From positions 3,534,001-3,598,000 of the forward strand of contig NZ_CP026309.1 in assembly GCF_002906575.1 (NCBI RefSeq): a stretch of 64,000 nucleotides of DNA, written 5' to 3'. A program made the translations under genes and the position numbers. Source of the stretch: Salinigranum rubrum. GTDB taxonomy: Archaea; Halobacteriota; Halobacteria; Halobacteriales; Haloferacaceae. The notes beneath the pieces are model-generated. The model saw only the letters and a program-made list of their open reading frames with translations, did no database searches and was not told the origin of the DNA. Shown one piece after another: positions 2,204 to 58,973 of this stretch (position 1 is its first letter; each line of letters begins with the position of its first letter).

Positions 2204-2390
2204 GTTCTCGTTCTGTGACTATCAGGCATAGTTTCGATTTTGATACTACCGGCTAACGACCCGTTAATCGCCGAATCTAACTCTTCGTGAACGGCTATCG
2301 TCCACTCACAGTCAGTCGCCCCGCCACAGCAGCCCTCGGTGTTGATACGAGTCGATGCTCTGTACGTGTTGTGAACCTCACAGAAACGAT

Positions 2391-2502
2391 ACGAGGGAAG
2401 GAATTTTGAACCACGGTCGTTCCGCTCACTCCGTTCGCTTCACTCCCTGATTCAAATCCTTCGTTCGATTTTCACGGCTCTCCCTGCGGTCGAGCCCGAA
2501 AA
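2391..2502 (-). repeat. Degenerate echo of tRNA-Leu 3' end plus 36-bp core
   Basis: Immediately beyond the 3' end of tRNA-Leu there is a second, imperfect copy of its acceptor/T-arm (2391-2412, against 2504-2524; two substitutions and one extra T). It is followed by a 36-bp core (2413-2448) and an inverted T-arm copy (2449-2459). The core matches 32 of 36 bases of the core beside tRNA-Gly (43658-43693). No ORF lies here. The rest of the 2204-2502 intergenic stretch shows nothing else I recognise. Confidence 0.7.
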
Positions 2503-2587
2503 TGCGAGGGAAGGGATTTGAACCCTCGAACCCCTACGGGAGCGGATCTTAAGTCCGCCGCTTTTGGCCTAGCTCAGCCACCCTCGC
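2503..2587 (-). tRNA. tRNA-Leu (UAA)
   Basis: 85-nt class II tRNA. The acceptor GCGAGGG pairs with CCCTCGC, the discriminator is A, the anticodon stem GCGGA/TCCGC closes loop CTTAAGA (anticodon UAA), there is a long variable arm, and the T loop reads GTTCAAATC. No CCA is encoded and no intron is visible. A degenerate copy of the 3' end lies about 113 bp downstream. Confidence 0.95.
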
Positions 2588-43635: not shown

Positions 43636-43746
43636 TGCGCCGTCCGGGAATTGAACCACGGTCGTTCCGCCCACTTCGTTCGCTCCACTCTCTGATTCGA
43701 TTCCCTCGGCGGCGATGCCGCTCGTCACGTTCGTTCGTCGCAGGCA
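43636..43746 (-). repeat. Echo of tRNA-Gly 3' end plus 36-bp core
   Basis: The acceptor/T-arm bases of tRNA-Gly (43747-43768) recur exactly at 43636-43657, 111 bp downstream of the gene. The copy is followed by a 36-bp core (43658-43693; 32 of 36 bases identical to 2413-2448 beside tRNA-Leu) and an inverted T-arm-like copy at 43694-43705. No ORF. Confidence 0.75.
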
Positions 43747-43817
43747 TGCGCCGTCCGGGAATTGAACCCGGGCTAGTGGCTTGGGAAGCCACTGTCCTAC
43801 CACTGGACCAACGGCGC
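43747..43817 (-). tRNA. tRNA-Gly (CCC)
   Basis: 71 nt. Acceptor GCGCCGT/ACGGCGC with discriminator A, D-arm GTCC..GGAC, anticodon stem GTGGC/GCCAC around TTCCCAA (anticodon CCC), T-arm CCGGG..CCCGG. Intact. Its 5' half is the integration site of the element that begins upstream of it, so its present 5' flank belongs to the element. Confidence 0.95.
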
Positions 43818-43818
43818 G
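43774..43818. repeat. Attachment site (att), tRNA-proximal copy
   Basis: 45-bp perfect direct repeat with 50978-51022. It covers tRNA-Gly from the anticodon arm to one base beyond its 5' end. Its inner part is a symmetric core (AGTGGCTT-GGG-AAGCCACT) of the type used by tyrosine recombinases. Confidence 0.88.
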
Positions 43819-44547
43819 TGCAGTGTGTGCGAACAGGCCTTACTACTTTAACTCAGCGGAATACGAGTGTTCCGTCTGTAGCTTTCTGCCTTCTGCATCC
43901 ACATAGAGCGTACACCGACTTATATACTGCAGGTTCGTTGGCCTGTAGCCATGTGAGATTCAACGTAGGGTCATAGATACGACGCCCCCTTCTCGTCGCA
44001 ACTACAGAAATTGCCAGAAATATCATTAGACGCGCATATATTATACTACTATACTCTTACTCAGAACCGTACCGATACAATGACTGTCTACAGTCCTATC
44101 ACTACACGGTTCTATGCGGCAATAGTTGCTTGTATTATTGACAATAGATTGCTATGATAGTAGTCAAGTCGTCGCAGTCATGCGATTTTGTGTGGGTACT
44201 CTATGGGCGATAAGTAAGTTTATGGCCGCATGAGTACCCATTGATTCATACTCGTGTACTACCCTCATACCTCGGAAACAGCTATTCGATTCTAATGCCC
44301 TTCTCGTCCGTTCTAACGCCGTCCGTGTTGTTCGAAGGTGATTGTACGTATTCCTTCAAGGAAGCTCTCTACGGCTGCACACGACGCTCATAGATGTGCC
44401 ACAGTAATAATCAAGAATGAATGTATTACTAACGGGGGTAGCAAAATTAGGCTTCTTTGACACGTACGTTCCACTGCACTGAGCGTGGATAAAAACCCTA
44501 CGTACGTACCGAAGTTTAAAACGTCAGGAGTGTCACAGAAAAGTCAA
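43819..44547. other. AT-rich gene-free segment of the element
   Basis: About 0.7 kb between tRNA-Gly and the first element gene. Apart from the tRNA promoter (43843-43852) I see no ORF with coding character. TATA-like strings occur repeatedly (for example 44036-44056). It could hold an origin or a non-coding RNA, but nothing in the sequence shows it. Confidence 0.4.
43843..43852 (-). promoter_or_regulatory. Element-borne promoter now serving tRNA-Gly
   Basis: Read on the minus strand, GTTAAAGTAG lies about 26-35 bases before the tRNA 5' end, the expected place of an archaeal box A. These bases belong to the element, not the original chromosome. Confidence 0.5.
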
Positions 44548-45348
44548 ATGGTGGAACAGTCAACGCTTTTGCAATTAATCCAGTTTGTAGGACTCATCAC
44601 ACCTGCGTTAGCAATTCTTATCGATTTATTAGTCCGAGTTCACGGTGGTATTGACGGACTCAGTTCTGGCCGTGAAATACCTATTGAAGTTCAAATTCTC
44701 TTCACAGGAATCATTTTAATTTTGGTCGGTGGCATGCTTGTCGGTTACCAGTTGGGAATTGAATTAGATAGTACGTATACGCAAGTTGCTACTCTGCTAA
44801 TCTTCGGTGGACTCCCATTCATTGCGCTTTCGGTCGTTGTCATGAATATACGACTCTCAGGAATCTCGGACCCGAGTGGCTCACTGATTGAACAATCCAT
44901 TTCAGGAATCAACTATTCCTTATCGGTTATCTTACCTCTGAGTTCGTCGTCAGTTGTTTACTTTGGAGCTGCCTTCTATTTCAGAGACATGATTAACCAG
45001 ACAGTGAATTGGTTTATTTTCAATAGTTTAGTTGAACCAATCTGGTTCATTTATGGGATTTGTGTGGTTTCAGTTTACAAAGTGATGTATTCACTGTGGT
45101 CACATAATCTACTACCAACGAAAAATTACGGAGTCGTCCTCAGAGGCTGGTTTGTTAGTACATTCACCGTTGGCGCGTTTATTATCTTATTCACCCTACC
45201 CGTGTATGTTGTGTTCTTTTACGCCACTCAATTCAACGTACCATATTTTACAAAAACGTCAATCACGATGGCGGTTCCGTATCTCTGGGCCGTAATTATT
45301 CTACTTGCACTTCTCTATAACGACGTTGACCCTCAGCCAAGCGACTGA
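44548..45348 (+). CDS. Element-encoded multi-pass membrane protein, unknown
   Basis: 266 aa from ATG 44548 (a GTG at 44485 would give 287). About six hydrophobic helices: around 10-30, 45-70, 80-105, 130-150, 200-225 and 235-255. No conserved motif recognised. Codon use is AT-rich and the protein is far less acidic than host proteins. It points away from the other element genes and converges with the next membrane protein, 24 bp away. Possible cargo gene; function unknown. Confidence 0.55.
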   Translation: MVEQSTLLQLIQFVGLITPALAILIDLLVRVHGGIDGLSSGREIPIEVQILFTGIILILVGGMLVGYQLGIELDSTYTQVATLLIFGGLPFIALSVVVMNIRLSGISDPSGSLIEQSISGINYSLSVILPLSSSSVVYFGAAFYFRDMINQTVNWFIFNSLVEPIWFIYGICVVSVYKVMYSLWSHNLLPTKNYGVVLRGWFVSTFTVGAFIILFTLPVYVVFFYATQFNVPYFTKTSITMAVPYLWAVIILLALLYNDVDPQPSD

Positions 45349-45372
45349 TACAGCTTGAGGCATGCCTTTCAA

Positions 45373-45936
45373 CTACTCTGTCTCATACTCCGTTATTCTT
45401 GATTGGGTCGTTCGTTGTTCCTCACCAACATTATCAGGCAATTCTTCACTTAGTCGATAGTTGAATATCCACACTGATGCAAAGGCAGTTATGAAGAATA
45501 TCCACCTATTCTCGGTAATCAAGAAAACAGAGACGTACACGGCTGTTAGGACGAAATGACTCCGAAACGATGTGATAGGATTCTCAACCTGTAGTACGTC
45601 TCCATATTCGTCTACTTCGAGAAGTGGTAGTAAGAGAAGAACAACCCAGAGAGGGACAGCAAGAAGCCACTTCATGTCTCCGTCAAAGAAGAAACTTGCA
45701 AGATGTATTCCGAAGGCGAGTATGAGGGTATTGGCAAAATGTAGCAAATTGAACCTGCCGAGGCTTGGACGACTTACGCGAGGGTCAAGTAGGCCTCCGT
45801 AGGTGAGGATTTTCAGAGGCAGTCTCTCTTCTTGTGCTACTTCAACAAGGTCTATTTCTCGTGCTACCTTTGCAAGCTCAATCACGATAAGAGCGAGAAG
45901 AGGGATTAGTATCGAAAAAGCCGTATTTTCAACCAT
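45373..45936 (-). CDS. Element-encoded membrane protein, unknown
   Basis: 187 aa with four predicted helices (about 5-22, 65-85, 90-108 and 130-160), an acidic loop after the first helix and a charged tail (DNVGEEQRTTQS). No family recognised. It lies downstream of and in line with the 170-aa gene, separated by 79 bp. Confidence 0.55.
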   Translation of the reverse strand: MVENTAFSILIPLLALIVIELAKVAREIDLVEVAQEERLPLKILTYGGLLDPRVSRPSLGRFNLLHFANTLILAFGIHLASFFFDGDMKWLLAVPLWVVLLLLPLLEVDEYGDVLQVENPITSFRSHFVLTAVYVSVFLITENRWIFFITAFASVWIFNYRLSEELPDNVGEEQRTTQSRITEYETE

Positions 45937-46015
45937 CGGCTTGACGATTCAACGTAATGATTCCATTTAGACTTTTGTGGTAATTGACTGATTCATCCAC
46001 TGGATTCAGTTGTCG

Positions 46016-46528
46016 TTACTCACTCTCAGTACTCGTAGTATCCTTTATTACAACATCGTCTATCTCGAAGTCGGGCACTTTACGCTCTAATCCAGAAACA
46101 GTTTCAATCTCTGTTAACGCGTCGTCAGCTAATTCATGGAGTGTTAACAGATTTCTGAATAATATCTCACGGTTCGGATTATTAATATCGCTCATTTTCC
46201 ACTGGATATTATGTGCCCACGTGTAATAATCAGTGATTGCTCTCACCTCTTCGTCAGTCATGTCACCCAATACTGAGCCGACTGACTCGTATACCGCTGT
46301 TGAAGGATAGTAGGATGGAAGATATTCCCGTGCCTGAATATACTCTTCTACCGTGTCAAGGACTCCATATGTACGACCAATCTCATGCAAGAGGGCCTTG
46401 CGAACTCGTCGCAATTGGTCTTTCTTTCGTTTTCTGTATCTCACGTATGCAACGACAAACGGTACGCTGACTCCTGCAAACGTACCCACTGCCTCAAGAA
46501 ACACCATGATGGATATATCTAATCCCAA
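46016..46528 (-). CDS. Element-encoded membrane-anchored protein, unknown
   Basis: 170 aa. One N-terminal helix (about 5-28: IMVFLEAVGTFAGVSVPFVV) followed by a basic stop-transfer RYRKRKKDQLRRVRK and an all-alpha soluble domain with MTDEEVRAITDYYTWAHNIQW, ending in an acidic tail. This N-anchored, cytosol-facing layout is typical of small membrane effectors on mobile elements; no specific function can be assigned. Confidence 0.55.
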   Translation of the reverse strand: MGLDISIMVFLEAVGTFAGVSVPFVVAYVRYRKRKKDQLRRVRKALLHEIGRTYGVLDTVEEYIQAREYLPSYYPSTAVYESVGSVLGDMTDEEVRAITDYYTWAHNIQWKMSDINNPNREILFRNLLTLHELADDALTEIETVSGLERKVPDFEIDDVVIKDTTSTESE

Positions 46529-46545
46529 TAGTATTAGGCGTAACT

Positions 46546-46734
46546 CTAATTTTGGTATCTCTTGAATTTCAGTCGTTCAACTTCAGACGCATGGTGCCTG
46601 CATCGACGTGAGATTGAAACACCGTCCTCAAACACAAAAGCGTCTAACGGCAGGCAGCTACAGTAGCGACCGTCAGCAAGACGATAGCCACAACGGCCTC
46701 TTGCAAGAGCTTCCTCCCGTGTTTCAACGCTCAT
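46546..46734 (-). CDS. Element-encoded small zinc-finger-like protein
   Basis: 62 aa. C-GYRLADGRY-C-S-C ... RR-C-RHH suggests a small zinc-binding module. Its start codon (46734) overlaps the end of the preceding gene by 11 bp, showing a compact polycistronic unit. Function unknown. Confidence 0.5.
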   Translation of the reverse strand: MSVETREEALARGRCGYRLADGRYCSCLPLDAFVFEDGVSISRRCRHHASEVERLKFKRYQN

Positions 46735-47017
46735 ACAGCACACCACTCTCAACGTCGAAGTAGGCCGGTTCTGCCGTCTTAGCATCTGTAACGGCCTTCT
46801 TGAGATAGACGATAAACTCCTCAAGCTCTTCGACCGTGAACGTGGTCATACTCTTGAAGTCCTCTCCTACGATGTGCAGACCGATAGCAGGCTCTCGTCC
46901 GTCAGGGTCGTTCTCGTAAACAACAGGACCGAACAGGACTAATGCACCGAACGGGTCTGCACACTCTATCTCGTCTGTTGTAAGAGAAGTGGTGCAGTAC
47001 CGTGTTAGCTCTATCAT
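46724..47017 (-). CDS. Element-encoded small acidic protein
   Basis: 97 aa. Contains GALVLFGPVVYEND and a Phe/Thr-Val-Glu-rich helix VEELEEFIVYLKKAV. No family recognised. It starts four bases after the upstream stop and overlaps the next gene, so it belongs to the packed minus-strand operon. Confidence 0.5.
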   Translation of the reverse strand: MIELTRYCTTSLTTDEIECADPFGALVLFGPVVYENDPDGREPAIGLHIVGEDFKSMTTFTVEELEEFIVYLKKAVTDAKTAEPAYFDVESGVLYER

Positions 47018-47021
47018 CGTC

Positions 47022-47303
47022 TCACCACCACTTCGCTTCGCCAGAGAACTTACCAGGAGGCAATTCTGGGTAGAGAAGACCGTGCCAATGAAGAACGCTG
47101 TTAATATCCTGCAGGGTCACACCGAACAGCTCTGCCAATTCGTCGTTCTTCATATCATGCTCATACAACAGATGCTCAAGAACGTGTAACTTATCGAAAT
47201 CAGCCTCAGAAAACTCATACGACCCGTTATCAATAGCCTCAAAGTCTGCACGCTTCTCTGCGGCAGGAACGCCGTCGTCTCCTCTGTTTAGATGAAACTC
47301 CAT
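47022..47303 (-). CDS. Element-encoded small protein with putative HTH
   Basis: 93 aa from ATG 47303. The stretch LEHLLYEHDMKNDELAELFG followed by VTLQDINSVLHWHGL fits a helix-turn-helix (recognition helix about 64-72), so a DNA-binding regulator is plausible. It begins one base after the stop of the 51-aa gene, indicating translational coupling. Confidence 0.5.
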   Translation of the reverse strand: MEFHLNRGDDGVPAAEKRADFEAIDNGSYEFSEADFDKLHVLEHLLYEHDMKNDELAELFGVTLQDINSVLHWHGLLYPELPPGKFSGEAKWW

Positions 47304-47304
47304 G

Positions 47305-47460
47305 TTAATCACTCTCCTGCGGTACGAGGGAAATTACGTCGTAGCGAGTTTGCCCACTAATCGTTGCAACTGACTTAATGTCTATTAGTTCGTAGTTGTC
47401 AGGAAGCTCTACCTCTTCATCGTACTCGAAAAACGAGACTCTTTCAATTGTATAATTCAT
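47305..47460 (-). CDS. Element-encoded 51-aa protein
   Basis: Reads MNYTIERVSFFEYDEEVELP ... ending VPQESD; acidic, beta-rich. Below common ORF cut-offs, but its stop is one base from the start of the next gene and it has its own AT-rich upstream region, so it is likely the first gene of the operon. No family recognised. Confidence 0.45.
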   Translation of the reverse strand: MNYTIERVSFFEYDEEVELPDNYELIDIKSVATISGQTRYDVISLVPQESD

Positions 47461-47671
47461 TTTGAATCTCCAATGGTGCTCAACGGCCTACCGCAGACTT
47501 GTAGAAACACCCATTTGTAGCCTATATGGTCGCTTGGTCGTGATACGCGCAAGAAAAAGCCCTAATAATGATTAGGGTGTTCTCAAAACAATAATATGAC
47601 CAACGTGAGACGAACAGAAGACTACGCCAAACTGTTCCCCTCAATAACACATACATTCAAAGGGTCCACTA

Positions 47672-48502
47672 TCAGTAATGTCCTGCTATCCAGCCTTTCT
47701 CCGATAACTTAGGGTGCATTTTCTCGACAGTCTCCTCATGACCGTAGAACCGTGGGTCTTGTAGCGCCGTGTCTACATCCTCGTACAGCACAAAGGCGAT
47801 GATACCGTAGAACGGTTCTGGACGCTTACCGATGTACGACCATGACGCAAAGTTCTGTGTTGCAACAATCTTGAGAACCTGTGTCTTCTGTCGTCCTGAG
47901 AGTCCTAAGCCGTCACACGTCGCTTCTGCCCAACGTCGATTGAGACGCTTGTCCTTGTTGACGACTAAGTGAGATGCGGCGTACTCACCGGCATTGTTGC
48001 TCGAACCGTAGTTACCTCTGCCGTCGTTTAGCTCAGACAGCTTTGTGTAGAACTTACGTTTCTCCTTAGGTGCGTCATCAGCACGAATCTGTGTAGCACT
48101 CTTAGCGTCTTCTGCGGACGTATACACCTGTACGTAGCCGTCTAACTCCTCTCCGTCTCCCGTAGCCGCCTTGTACGAGCGTGCATCCAGCCAATCACCT
48201 CCGTCTGTCATAGCACGGTCTGCCGAAGGGTCTACCCTGACAGACCGTGTCTTAGGCCGCATATCGGAACACACGTAGTCATAGTCTATAGGTGGCAGAT
48301 TCCAGTCATACTCATGCCTGTCCGTCAGACCATGCTCCTTGAGCTGTTCCTTGTAGTCTTCAACGTCCCAACCGTACTCATTTACAACACTTCGGATAGG
48401 TCTACCCTCCTCGACTAAGTAAACGAGTACGTCGTAGTCTCTGTAAGCGAAAGGGTCGTTCTCTAACTTTTCTTCAATCTCTGTCGTAGTCTTTTGTATC
48501 AT
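47672..48502 (-). CDS. Element-encoded 276-aa protein, unknown
   Basis: 276 aa from ATG 48502 (MIQKTTTEIEEKL). The N-terminal 60 residues (YDVLVYLVEEGRPIRSVVNEYGWDVEDYKEQL) look like a winged-helix or HTH module. The centre is hydrophilic with KRKFYTKLSELNDG, and the C-terminus has WAEATCDGLGLSGRQKTQVLKIV and KLSEKGWIAGHY. It is the largest non-integrase soluble protein of the element and a candidate for replication or regulation; nothing conserved is recognisable. Confidence 0.55.
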   Translation of the reverse strand: MIQKTTTEIEEKLENDPFAYRDYDVLVYLVEEGRPIRSVVNEYGWDVEDYKEQLKEHGLTDRHEYDWNLPPIDYDYVCSDMRPKTRSVRVDPSADRAMTDGGDWLDARSYKAATGDGEELDGYVQVYTSAEDAKSATQIRADDAPKEKRKFYTKLSELNDGRGNYGSSNNAGEYAASHLVVNKDKRLNRRWAEATCDGLGLSGRQKTQVLKIVATQNFASWSYIGKRPEPFYGIIAFVLYEDVDTALQDPRFYGHEETVEKMHPKLSEKGWIAGHY

Positions 48503-48588
48503 TATTATTACCTTAATCTCTAAAAGCGGCATAACGTCTCAAGGAACACCGTTCCTACAGCAATCAGGCCGCTACCAGTCGTCCGTCG

Positions 48589-48732
48589 TTACTTGTTTTG
48601 CCAGTAGAATCGTGCCAAGTCTTCCACGATTGTGCCGTATGGAACACTCTGCGTCCCGTACATCTCTTCCTTCAATTCAGTCAACTGACTCTTCTCCATC
48701 GCACTAAGGGCAATACGTTCGTTTCGTTGCAT
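48589..48732 (-). CDS. Element-encoded 47-aa putative DNA-binding protein
   Basis: Reads MQRNERIALSAMEKSQLTEL ... IVEDLARFYWQNK. Two amphipathic helices and a short basic N-terminus resemble ribbon-helix-helix-type repressors of plasmids and viruses (inference). About 100-130 bp upstream lie two palindromic sites (48834-48865). Confidence 0.45.
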   Translation of the reverse strand: MQRNERIALSAMEKSQLTELKEEMYGTQSVPYGTIVEDLARFYWQNK

Positions 48733-49430
48733 TTCTCTTACACTCCTCACTCTATTGGTAATACGCGGAAACTGAACTGCACTTCAGTCTCCTTATTATA
48801 TGTGTAATGCTTGAAGCCTATTTATACTGGCAACTTGTTATATCAGGGTTACTTGATATATCAAGGTGATGACTGGCTGAGGGGGGCTTTGAATGTAAGT
48901 GTTATTGAGAGGGTAGCATAATAGGGCATCACGACGATGCTTGTGTTAGAAGTATCGTTGAGAAGAAGCATCCAGAGGAAGGTGAAACAGTAGGATACTG
49001 TGTGCGTCAGTTCGTCGGTCTTCCTCCACTCACAATCTGCGATTGTTCGTGTCGGTAAGACCTTCCTCACAACGACGCTACGAACAGGCAGTTCACTGAC
49101 ACAGTGTAACCACTCCATCGAAGCGGGAGGTAAGGAGTGGAGATTCGTGGGACTAATCGGCTAACTCTTGGTCTATGAAAATACTAAATGATTAATAGTG
49201 TAAGTTATAAGGACGTCTCACGGCAGAATTATCACACTGACTATGATTACTACTACAACCCCTCTCAGACGCACCAGAATCGTCTGTGTTGACGTTCTTG
49301 CCGTCAGTAGTACATCCTACTATCAGAACAGTCTGATGCAACAGAGAGGCTTGTAGGCCGTCTGAGAGCCTTCCTATCAGACAGCAGTAATACTAACAGC
49401 CATGACTAAGTAGCACATCAGTGTACAAAC
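48733..49430. other. Sparse regulatory region of the element
   Basis: About 0.7 kb with palindromes at 48834-48865 and short open frames of doubtful coding value (an 85-codon minus-strand frame at 48861-49118 and a 37-codon plus-strand frame at 49243). It is the largest non-coding interval near the putative repressor and a candidate control or origin region. Confidence 0.4.
48834..48865. promoter_or_regulatory. Paired palindromic operator-like sites
   Basis: CTTGATATATCAAG (48852-48865) is a perfect 14-bp palindrome. CTTGTTATATCAGG (48834-48847) is a degenerate copy whose start lies 18 bp before it. The spacing suggests two dimers binding on nearly the same helix face. A TATA-like TTTATACTGG lies just before, at about 48820-48829. 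Confidence 0.5.
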
Positions 49431-49634
49431 ATGTACATCGACAGTGACCAAAAGCTCCCTGAGTCACACATGGTCACAGACCCTACGACACACAGGGAGC
49501 TTTCAGACCGACAAGAAGGTAAGAGACAGGTACAGAGTACGTCAGACTCACATCATCCTGATAGACCGTCTACTACAAGGAGAGAGTTTTCTATACACTC
49601 AATCCAACCGAGAAGGGGAAGTATTCTATTATAG
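49431..49634 (+). CDS. Doubtful small ORF of the element
   Basis: 67 codons starting MYIDSDQKLPESHMVTDP, hydrophilic and basic at the end. Another plus-strand frame (49444-49674) overlaps it almost entirely, so at most one is real. No family. An AT-rich stretch (about 49640-49680) separates it from the integrase stop. Confidence 0.2.
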   Translation: MYIDSDQKLPESHMVTDPTTHRELSDRQEGKRQVQSTSDSHHPDRPSTTRREFSIHSIQPRRGSILL

Positions 49635-49712
49635 GAGCTACAACATATATAAAAGTTTCGCAATTATTATATAGTTAAATTTCAGAAAGTGTTTCCCAGA
49701 TTATGAGAACGT

Positions 49713-50894
49713 TCAACCCATACGTTCTAAGGCAGAACGACGGTCCTCGATAGGAGCAGAGTCATAACGGAGAGTCGTTCGTTCAGAACGATGCCGTAAC
49801 TGAGCCTTTGCCGCCGCTAACCCTCTTTCGTGAGTCATGTATGTCCCAACACTATGACGAATCGCGTACCATGACATCTTACGATTTTCTGTAGGAATTT
49901 GAGCCACTTCACACAGCTTCTTCAACAGGTGGCTGAGGCTGTAAGACTTGTACGGATTACCTCTCCGTGTAAGCCATAAGGCGTCTGTGTCGGCATATTT
50001 CTCGTACTGCTGACGTTCTTCCAGCCACAATCTCAGAACCTCAGCAGTACGAGGTTGTAGACTGACAACCCAGTTATCTTCGTTCTTACTGGATTCCTCA
50101 GCCGGGATACGTAGTACAGCGTTCTCAACATCCACCCAAGATACCTTCGCACGACCTACTTCTACGGGACGTAATCCGGCGTCGAGAGAAGTCCATACCA
50201 TAGAAGGTATCTTGAACCCATTAGCTCTGTCAAAGTCGGCTCTGGTAATATCGGACTTCGGCTTTCCAAACCTCTGAGCTAACAGAGCCTTCCACTCTGA
50301 GCGTTCTTCGGCAGTCAGGGAGTTGTAGTGTGGGATAGTCCCATATTCTAAGGCGGCTTCACGAAGTCTGGTACGTTCGTCACGAGTCAGGAAGTCACGG
50401 GGCTTAATCGAACCTCCGTAGTTAGAGAACGTTACGGCAGGCTCCCACGGCTCTTCGTTCAACTCGTGGGCCTTCCACTTCCAGAGCATCTTGAGAGCCT
50501 TTTGTGTGTTGGCCTTGTGCGTGTTGCTGGAATCACTGTAGACCAGTTCTCTCATGTAGGCGTCAGCATCCTCATGCGTGATTGCGGTCGTGTACCTACC
50601 TTTCTCCGTCCAGACCCACCTGTAGAACGCATCCAAGCGACATGCTCTGACTCGTACAGTTTCGTATGCGTAGCCATCTGCTCTGTCAGGGTCTTTTCCA
50701 AAGTGTAACCCCCATTGAATCAGCCGTCTTCTGTGTTCTGCGTAATCGACTTTCTGACGTTCGTTGAGAACTGCCTGAGACGGTTCAGGCACAAGGGGGA
50801 TACCGTCGATATTCTGGTTGGCCAGAAGGTCGTCAGAAATCGCGTCACGGGAGCGACTTTCTTCTATTCGTTCAATGTCGTTGGCGTGTGGCAT
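49713..50894 (-). CDS. int: Tyrosine integrase (site-specific recombinase)
   Basis: 393 aa. An N-terminal SAM-like core-binding domain (about 45-160) is followed by a catalytic domain. Active-site residues by alignment: Arg242 (DAGLRPVEVGRA), Lys270, Tyr343-xx-Arg346 (the first position, usually His, is Tyr), His368 (AQLRHRS) and nucleophile Tyr377 (LRYDSA). Start ATG 50894 (MPHANDIERIEES), 83 bp inside the att copy; the frame stays open back through att to 50996. It catalyses integration and excision of the element at tRNA-Gly. It is read away from the host boundary, so transcription entering from the host tRNA promoter would reach it. Confidence 0.88.
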   Translation of the reverse strand: MPHANDIERIEESRSRDAISDDLLANQNIDGIPLVPEPSQAVLNERQKVDYAEHRRRLIQWGLHFGKDPDRADGYAYETVRVRACRLDAFYRWVWTEKGRYTTAITHEDADAYMRELVYSDSSNTHKANTQKALKMLWKWKAHELNEEPWEPAVTFSNYGGSIKPRDFLTRDERTRLREAALEYGTIPHYNSLTAEERSEWKALLAQRFGKPKSDITRADFDRANGFKIPSMVWTSLDAGLRPVEVGRAKVSWVDVENAVLRIPAEESSKNEDNWVVSLQPRTAEVLRLWLEERQQYEKYADTDALWLTRRGNPYKSYSLSHLLKKLCEVAQIPTENRKMSWYAIRHSVGTYMTHERGLAAAKAQLRHRSERTTLRYDSAPIEDRRSALERMG

Positions 50895-50977
50895 TGCTTT
50901 GGTTTCCTGCTTTAGAAGGCAGAAAACTACAGCACTGGAACGTCTTGCTAAGAAGTTCGTAAGAACCGGGTTCGTCT

Positions 50978-51022
50978 TAGTGGCTTGGGAAGCCACTGTC
51001 CTACCACTGGACCAACGGCGCG
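50978..51022. repeat. Attachment site (att), distal copy with orphan 5' tRNA half
   Basis: Perfect 45-bp copy of 43774-43818. The sequence to its left (50971-50977) does not continue the tRNA, so this is an orphan 5' half of tRNA-Gly next to the original chromosomal flank. Confidence 0.88.
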
Positions 51023-58733: not shown

Positions 58734-58889
58734 ACGCGGTGGGACTGGGATTTGAACCGGACCGAGACGTGCTCGCTCACTTCGTTCGCTGCGCGCGACT
58801 CGTAGGGTTCAAATCCAGCCGTTTCCTCGACAGACGCTCGCAGGAGGTGCGGAGATGAAACTCCGCACCTCGTAGCTCGCTTCAGAACG
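58734..58889 (-). repeat. Echo of tRNA-Ser 3' end with duplicated hairpin
   Basis: The tRNA-Ser acceptor/T-arm region (58887-58911) recurs exactly at 58734-58758, 153 bp further on. A T-arm inverted copy lies at 58806-58816, giving an 11-bp perfect inverted repeat with 58748-58758. The loop holds GCTCACTTCGTTCGCT, shared with the Gly echo apart from one base. Each copy is preceded on the plus strand by a GC-rich hairpin (around 58693-58716 and 58848-58870). Confidence 0.7.
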
Positions 58890-58973
58890 CGGTGGGACTG
58901 GGATTTGAACCCAGGAGGCCGTAGGGCCACCTGCTTTCAAGGCAGGCGCGTTAGTCCACTCCGCCATCCCACC
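58890..58973 (-). tRNA. tRNA-Ser (UGA)
   Basis: 84-nt class II tRNA. Acceptor GGTGGGA/TCCCACC, discriminator G as usual for serine, anticodon stem CCTGC/GCAGG around CTTGAAA (anticodon UGA), long variable arm GGCCCTACGGCC, T-arm CTGGG..CCCAG. The matching SerRS is at 14.2 kb in this window. Confidence 0.95.

Follow-up and report, generated by a model that had tools for sequence, protein, structure and literature searches.

Small hairpin cassettes that carry no genes lie behind many transfer RNA (tRNA) genes throughout the order of haloarchaea to which Salinigranum rubrum belongs, and their core is found almost only at tRNA 3' ends. Three such units are located in the stretch of S. rubrum DNA analysed here (contig NZ_CP026309.1, positions 3,534,001 to 3,598,000, 64 kb in all, called the window). 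Read on the strand of its tRNA, each unit follows the same order: tRNA, spacer, inverted copy of the T-arm, core, and direct copy of the last 21-22 bases of that same tRNA. The units are regarded, with about even chances of this being right, as attR-like gene-less cassettes of a tRNA-targeting site-specific recombination system, reduced to their recombination sites.

Anatomy of the units

An earlier note, made from the letters of the window alone, had described a 22-bp repeat of the tRNA-Gly 3' end followed by a 36-bp core and an inverted arm, and the same arrangement beyond tRNA-Leu. The unit behind tRNA-Gly-CCC stood as described: the block 43636-43657 repeats the end of the gene at 43747-43768 exactly and the core occupies 43658-43693, with the inverted arm running on to 43707. 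The order was likewise recovered behind tRNA-Leu-TAA (copy 2390-2412, arm 2449-2462), where the copy is inexact, having one inserted base in the T-loop and several substitutions. The two cores agree at 32 of 36 positions, as had been stated, and a 24-base motif of the core, which occurs twice in the window, was absent from all 100 shuffles and is therefore not a chance match. The third unit (58736-58888), behind tRNA-Ser-TGA, was missing from the earlier note and has a core different from that of the first two, while no unit lies behind tRNA-Thr-GGT, also in the window. The features are listed in Table 1.

Table 1. Components of the three tRNA-linked units in the window
Feature	Position	Strand	Basis or remark
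tRNA-Gly-CCC, anchor of unit 1	43747..43817	-	ARAGORN
Unit 1 spacer, from tRNA to hairpin site	43708..43746	-	sequence reading
Unit 1 inverted T-arm copy, GAGGGAATCGAATC	43694..43707	-	matches the unusual T-loop of tRNA-Gly-CCC, likewise in relatives
Unit 1 class A core, 36 bp	43658..43693	-	32/36 identical to unit 2 core
Unit 1 exact direct copy of tRNA-Gly-CCC 3' end	43636..43657	-	sequence comparison
tRNA-Leu-TAA, anchor of unit 2	2503..2587	-	ARAGORN
Unit 2 spacer	2463..2502	-	sequence reading
Unit 2 inverted T-arm copy, GAAGGATTTGAATC	2449..2462	-	sequence reading
Unit 2 class A core, 36 bp	2413..2448	-	sequence comparison
Unit 2 imperfect direct copy of tRNA-Leu-TAA 3' end	2390..2412	-	sequence comparison
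tRNA-Ser-TGA, anchor of unit 3	58889..58973	-	ARAGORN
Unit 3 spacer containing an internal hairpin	58821..58888	-	sequence reading
Unit 3 inverted T-arm copy, GGCTGGATTTGAACC	58806..58820	-	sequence reading
Unit 3 class B core with covarying inner stem	58758..58805	-	comparison among units
Unit 3 exact 22-bp direct copy of tRNA-Ser-TGA 3' end	58736..58757	-	24/24 bases in tail matching

The Salinigranum genome measures 4.97 Mb and has 47 tRNA genes, of which at least 19, including three in the window, have units behind them. Each of these genes has between one and three such units, which are gene-less, about 100-200 bp long and provided with cores of 36-60 bp. A unit was called when a copy of the gene's own 3' end matched at 12 or more of 14 positions and an inverted T-arm preceded it; the tRNA calls are those of ARAGORN, and the total of 47 comprises 46 genes found by Rfam and tRNA-Pro-CGG, seen beside one core match. 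Two further units, behind tRNA-Met and tRNA-Gln-TTG, were recognised by eye. When each downstream stretch of the whole genome was scored for its best match to the tail of its own tRNA, the scores added up to 732; tails permuted among the genes gave 625 +/- 8.7 and never more than 662 in 10,000 permutations. Several core classes are present, namely A (AATCAGRGAGTG...GGAACGACCGTGGTTC), B (AACCCTGCCAGTCGCGCGCAGCG...GCACGTCTGGCTCCGGTTC) and others, and some tRNAs bear two or three units with differing cores. The units thus have no single constant core of the kind proposed in the earlier note, and it is not the direct copy alone that varies with the tRNA but also the inverted arm.

The direct copy begins with the T-loop GTTC of the tRNA and ends with its discriminator base. 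In 82 class A units without a T-loop insertion its identity is 0.84-1.0 through the discriminator base and about 0.45 just past it, and no CCA follows that base in the copied blocks of class A units. Among the 93 class A units adjoining tRNAs the part beyond the T-loop agrees with the unit's own tRNA at 11.4 of 13 positions, against 6.8 (maximum 7.5) when tRNAs are permuted, so that the flanks match the local tRNA beyond conserved T-arm bases, a point on which the earlier note had made its proposal depend. The left inverted arm of class A units also follows its own tRNA (7.95 of 10 positions; permuted 6.74, maximum 7.14). Many copies contain an extra base in the T-loop (GGTTCACAATCC, GGTTCGATATCC, GGTTCAACATCC) in differing tRNAs and species (loci L043, L052, L035, L062, L083 and others). 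This base may be extrahelical in the folded site, or it may be a means of spoiling the copy as a target.

The two arms covary, and class B-like units possess in addition a covarying inner stem of some five pairs, whose variants change in step (GCCAG/CTGGC, CGAG/CTCG, GGAAG/CTTCC and more), while an internal loop and a one-base mismatch hold fixed places. Arm mismatches in class A, with one fixed column left out, include 30 G-T and 40 A-C, and in the other classes 7 G-T and 14 A-C; these counts, like those of arms and stems, are uncorrected for shared descent. As G-T is no commoner than A-C, apart from the one fixed class A column, the symmetry is taken for that of a DNA site and not of an RNA stem. 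A structured RNA would be expected to preserve its stems through G-U and Watson-Crick changes alike; this was not observed, and an Rfam search of seven loci returned tRNAs and chance matches only, with no known RNA family.

Distribution in haloarchaea

Of 392 genomes examined in the order, 104 contain the exact core 18-mer GCGGAACGACCGTGGTTC, and these represent 39 of 96 genera; the reversed sequence, used as control, occurs in none. Of the 30 loci fetched, 27 lie directly behind a tRNA. A scan with a 24-mer over one genome per species, about 85,000 prokaryote species, gave 69 stretches, every one haloarchaeal. The core search suggested by the earlier note came out in its favour: 66 of 74 sites are situated 62-316 bp behind a same-strand tRNA, representing some two dozen tRNA species, while most of the eight exceptional sites are either cut by a contig end or bear a tRNA end that has been displaced, as an inserted element would do. 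The hairpin pattern GATTYGAAYC-N(22-52)-GGTTCRAATC, which makes no use of the core, was found in 48 of 53 genomes belonging to the order, while 242 genomes from elsewhere in the phylum gave no match; in all 27 loci fetched the hairpin lies behind a tRNA. At two loci (L155, L156) the tRNA-Asp and tRNA-Pro genes are duplicated 2.2-2.3 kb apart with a class A unit behind each copy; these unit pairs were considered as an autonomous element and rejected, being two tRNA gene copies each with its own unit.

Gain and loss of whole units

Some rows consist of near-identical units, with three of 108 bp behind tRNA-Lys-CTT in genome G218 and two of 119 bp behind tRNA-Gly-TCC in genome G003, a relative from the same genus as the window. 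About 300 bp behind the latter (L085 / L112) lies an integrase remnant, broken across frames and akin to the integrase of the window. Orthologous tRNA-Arg-CCG loci in one genus carry differing sets of whole units with joints exactly at the copies of the tRNA end; in G165 one spacer is tRNA-proximal, and in G244 a unit stands between this spacer and the tRNA. The Met loci of another genus likewise differ by whole units. The match to the tRNA falls from the first to the last copy in 26 rows, rises in 5 and is unchanged in 32 (P = 0.0002), which is expected if new units enter beside the tRNA, though edge decay may also produce it.

Relation to integrated elements

One class A unit of the Salinigranum genome stands 65 kb from its tRNA, Thr-CGT, with a provirus-like element between them (C1:1173500-1238670; L110, L111). 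Its portal- and terminase-like proteins were recognised by reading of the open reading frames only; a Phage_integrase protein adjoins the distal end, and a second relative of tyrosine recombinases, 44% identical, lies 13 kb inside. Both ends carry exactly GTTCAAATCCCTCCACCGGCT (21 bp), reaching from the T-loop GTTC to the discriminator, and at the distal end an inverted T-arm, GGATTTGAACTC, directly precedes this shared block. Because these limits and the inverted arm are those of the units, the latter resemble attR sites that lack their element.

In the Haloarcula halophila plasmid NZ_CP119561.1 (L244:3930-4090) a class B core and spacer interrupt a tRNA-Cys-like gene between GTCGGT and TTCGAATCC. 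The interruption falls exactly at the T-loop, so the joint is again placed there; it would either break the tRNA or serve as an odd intron. This tRNA-Cys belongs to a cluster of 23 predicted tRNAs.

No full-size relative combining class A or B ends with genes was found in phages, plasmids or viral contigs. The 18-mer matches in viral contigs were rejected as parent elements, being unrelated coding DNA, and hairpin-pattern matches there were mostly unrelated palindromes or tRNA clusters, one (L114) being a stretch that follows a complete tRNA-Glu. Among viral contigs, those with relatives of the provirus integrase have a possible inverted repeat before the gene; no tRNA could be matched to them, and they were not used as evidence.

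In the window itself a 7-kb element (43818-51022) with a Phage_integrase open reading frame (49713-50996, minus strand) lies upstream of tRNA-Gly-CCC. Its end is an exact 45-bp copy of the 5' part of this tRNA (50978-51022), which indicates integration through the 5' half of the same gene whose 3' side bears unit 1.

Proposed origin of the units

The earlier proposal of a tiny integrating repeat that uses tRNA 3' ends as targets remains the best reading in view of the tRNA association, the own-3'-end flank and the gain and loss of whole units at orthologous loci. The cassette would consist of little more than an element's two ends. One is the spacer, and the other, attR, is a hairpin-like site in which the core stands between the inverted T-arm and the T-arm/acceptor copy. 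The T-loop of the tRNA gene would be where a recombinase, in all likelihood a tyrosine recombinase, joins the two, so that the incoming cassette restores the tRNA 3' end and the previous one comes to lie behind the cassette. Repeated integration would then build rows with the newest unit beside the tRNA. Such a recombinase would act in trans with the folded site as its substrate, and the cassettes may still be mobile.

The properties expected of attR are in part directly visible, since an intact tRNA is followed by a direct repeat that reproduces its 3' end, and the crossover block is the same as that of a bona fide integrated element, in one case only, the provirus at tRNA-Thr-CGT. Several observations weigh against cassette integration. 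The provirus is a single case and is without the core. No integrase gene occurs within the units, and BLAST searches, with four haloarchaeal integrases as the only queries, revealed no recombinase gene in or beside tRNA-adjacent units; those integrases that are found nearby belong to elements that displaced units. The class A core is absent from phage and plasmid records and class B from phage records, while in plasmids class B was met in two places only, both at tRNAs (one behind tRNA-Val, the other within the tRNA-Cys described above). Neither a circle of a unit nor an empty site within one species was seen, and the gradient of freshness along the rows can in part be edge decay. Finally, integrase recombination alone does not account for an inverted arm that tracks the tRNA, and repair internal to the folded hairpin would need to be invoked in addition.

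Comparison with known systems

Archaeal elements with tRNA-targeting tyrosine recombinases include the SNJ2, SSV, pTN3 and other types (PMC8371274). Their att sites resemble the units in having a tRNA 3'-end target, a restored tRNA, a second 3'-end copy at the far end and dyad symmetry at the T-arm. The units differ in their size of 100-200 bp, in the lack of genes and recombinase and in their arrangement in rows; moreover, they accompany roughly one tRNA in two, occur in nearly every genome of the order and have a few core families common to many different tRNAs. In Haloquadratum, prophages are flanked by direct copies of the tRNA 3' end of 22 and 43 bp (PMC3119063), but such copies enclose kilobases of viral genes, whereas in the units only spacer and hairpin lie between them.

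Integron cassettes form rows that grow beside a fixed attI anchor, and their attC sites are palindromic, with the outer boxes RYYYAAC/GTTRRRY, and are used by IntI. On paper the units share the rows at a fixed anchor, the outer boxes, the internal loop, the variable covarying inner stem and the variable tip, and like attC they are imperfect palindromes conserved more in structure than in sequence. Their boxes are however those of the tRNA T-arm (GATTYGAAYC / GGTTCRAATC), cassette genes are lacking, and the anchors are many tRNAs rather than one attI. Since their boxes are of another sequence, and since neither cassette genes nor, in the BLAST searches with four integrases, an IntI came to light, the units are not filed as an integron. 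It is conceivable, if doubtful, that they form a haloarchaeal integron-like system anchored on tRNA genes, in which a host or viral recombinase acting in trans would insert the folded hairpin into the T-loop and both arms would adopt the local tRNA sequence.

Miniature inverted-repeat transposable elements (MITEs), repetitive extragenic palindromic (REP) sequences and bacterial interspersed mosaic elements (BIMEs) are also small, gene-less, palindromic and multi-copy, and are presumably moved in trans. The units resemble them in all of these, presumably the last included, and are distinguished by their strict place behind tRNA genes and by arms that both take up the 3' end of the local tRNA. 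The open-access papers searched describe tRNA-targeting integrases and prophage-linked partial tRNA duplications, but no system of cassettes that lack genes and copy their target in this way.

Alternative explanations

The units may instead be scars of full-size elements that integrated in succession at each tRNA and lost their bodies by deletion, leaving two ends that were never themselves mobilised. The anatomy, an attR plus an attL end, agrees with this, real elements do integrate at these tRNAs, and in Haloquadratum repeat-mediated deletions have been reported, two of which lie where prophages had left partial tRNA duplications (PMC3119063). This explanation is nevertheless rather unlikely, given the uniform size of the units, spacers and cores conserved in dozens of genera, and the lack of any gene-bearing intermediate in the viral, phage and plasmid collections.

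Quite unlikely is tandem duplication with gene conversion, by which the units would have arisen in place and spread through homologous recombination at the T-loop sequence, conversion maintaining the flank and no recombinase being involved. Identical tandem rows, duplicated tRNA genes both provided with units, and cores common to many tRNAs beside flanks that stay local would fit. The homology in common at the T-loop is however only about 11 bp, and neither the palindromic site nor the precise discriminator end nor the same limits in the provirus are accounted for.

That the hairpins are host elements kept by selection and serving the tRNA, in transcription end, in processing or as decoy landing sites against integrating elements, is improbable. 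Their near-universal occurrence in the order is in its favour, and copies of the own tRNA would make good decoys for elements recognising the tRNA 3' end only. Yet 28 of the 47 Salinigranum tRNAs have no clear unit, unit composition turns over within one genus, the stems show no G-U preference or match to a known RNA family, and the provirus and other displaced units show that elements land at the tRNA and not behind the unit.

The copying of a tRNA or processed tRNA into DNA behind its gene, which the earlier note had offered as a second option, is hardly credible: the copied block does stop precisely where the tRNA itself ends prior to the addition of CCA, but it lacks CCA, no sign of a copying enzyme is present, and because the integrase-bearing DNA provirus shares the block from GTTC to discriminator ordinary site-specific recombination is enough. 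Acquisition of the casposon or CRISPR (clustered regularly interspaced short palindromic repeats) kind was rejected, as the inserts belong to a few conserved families rather than being random DNA.

Significance

tRNA genes are classic landing sites of viruses and plasmids. According to the present data the gene-less hairpin cassette is a very common thing behind the tRNAs of haloarchaea, in nearly every genome of the order, and for annotators this means that repeats of the tRNA 3' end do not by themselves mark a provirus. The units give a countable record of insertion at tRNA ends and, as the cores stay while the tRNA flank changes, a test bed for the switching of recombinases between tRNAs. 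Possibly they represent a second lineage of cassette rows besides integrons.
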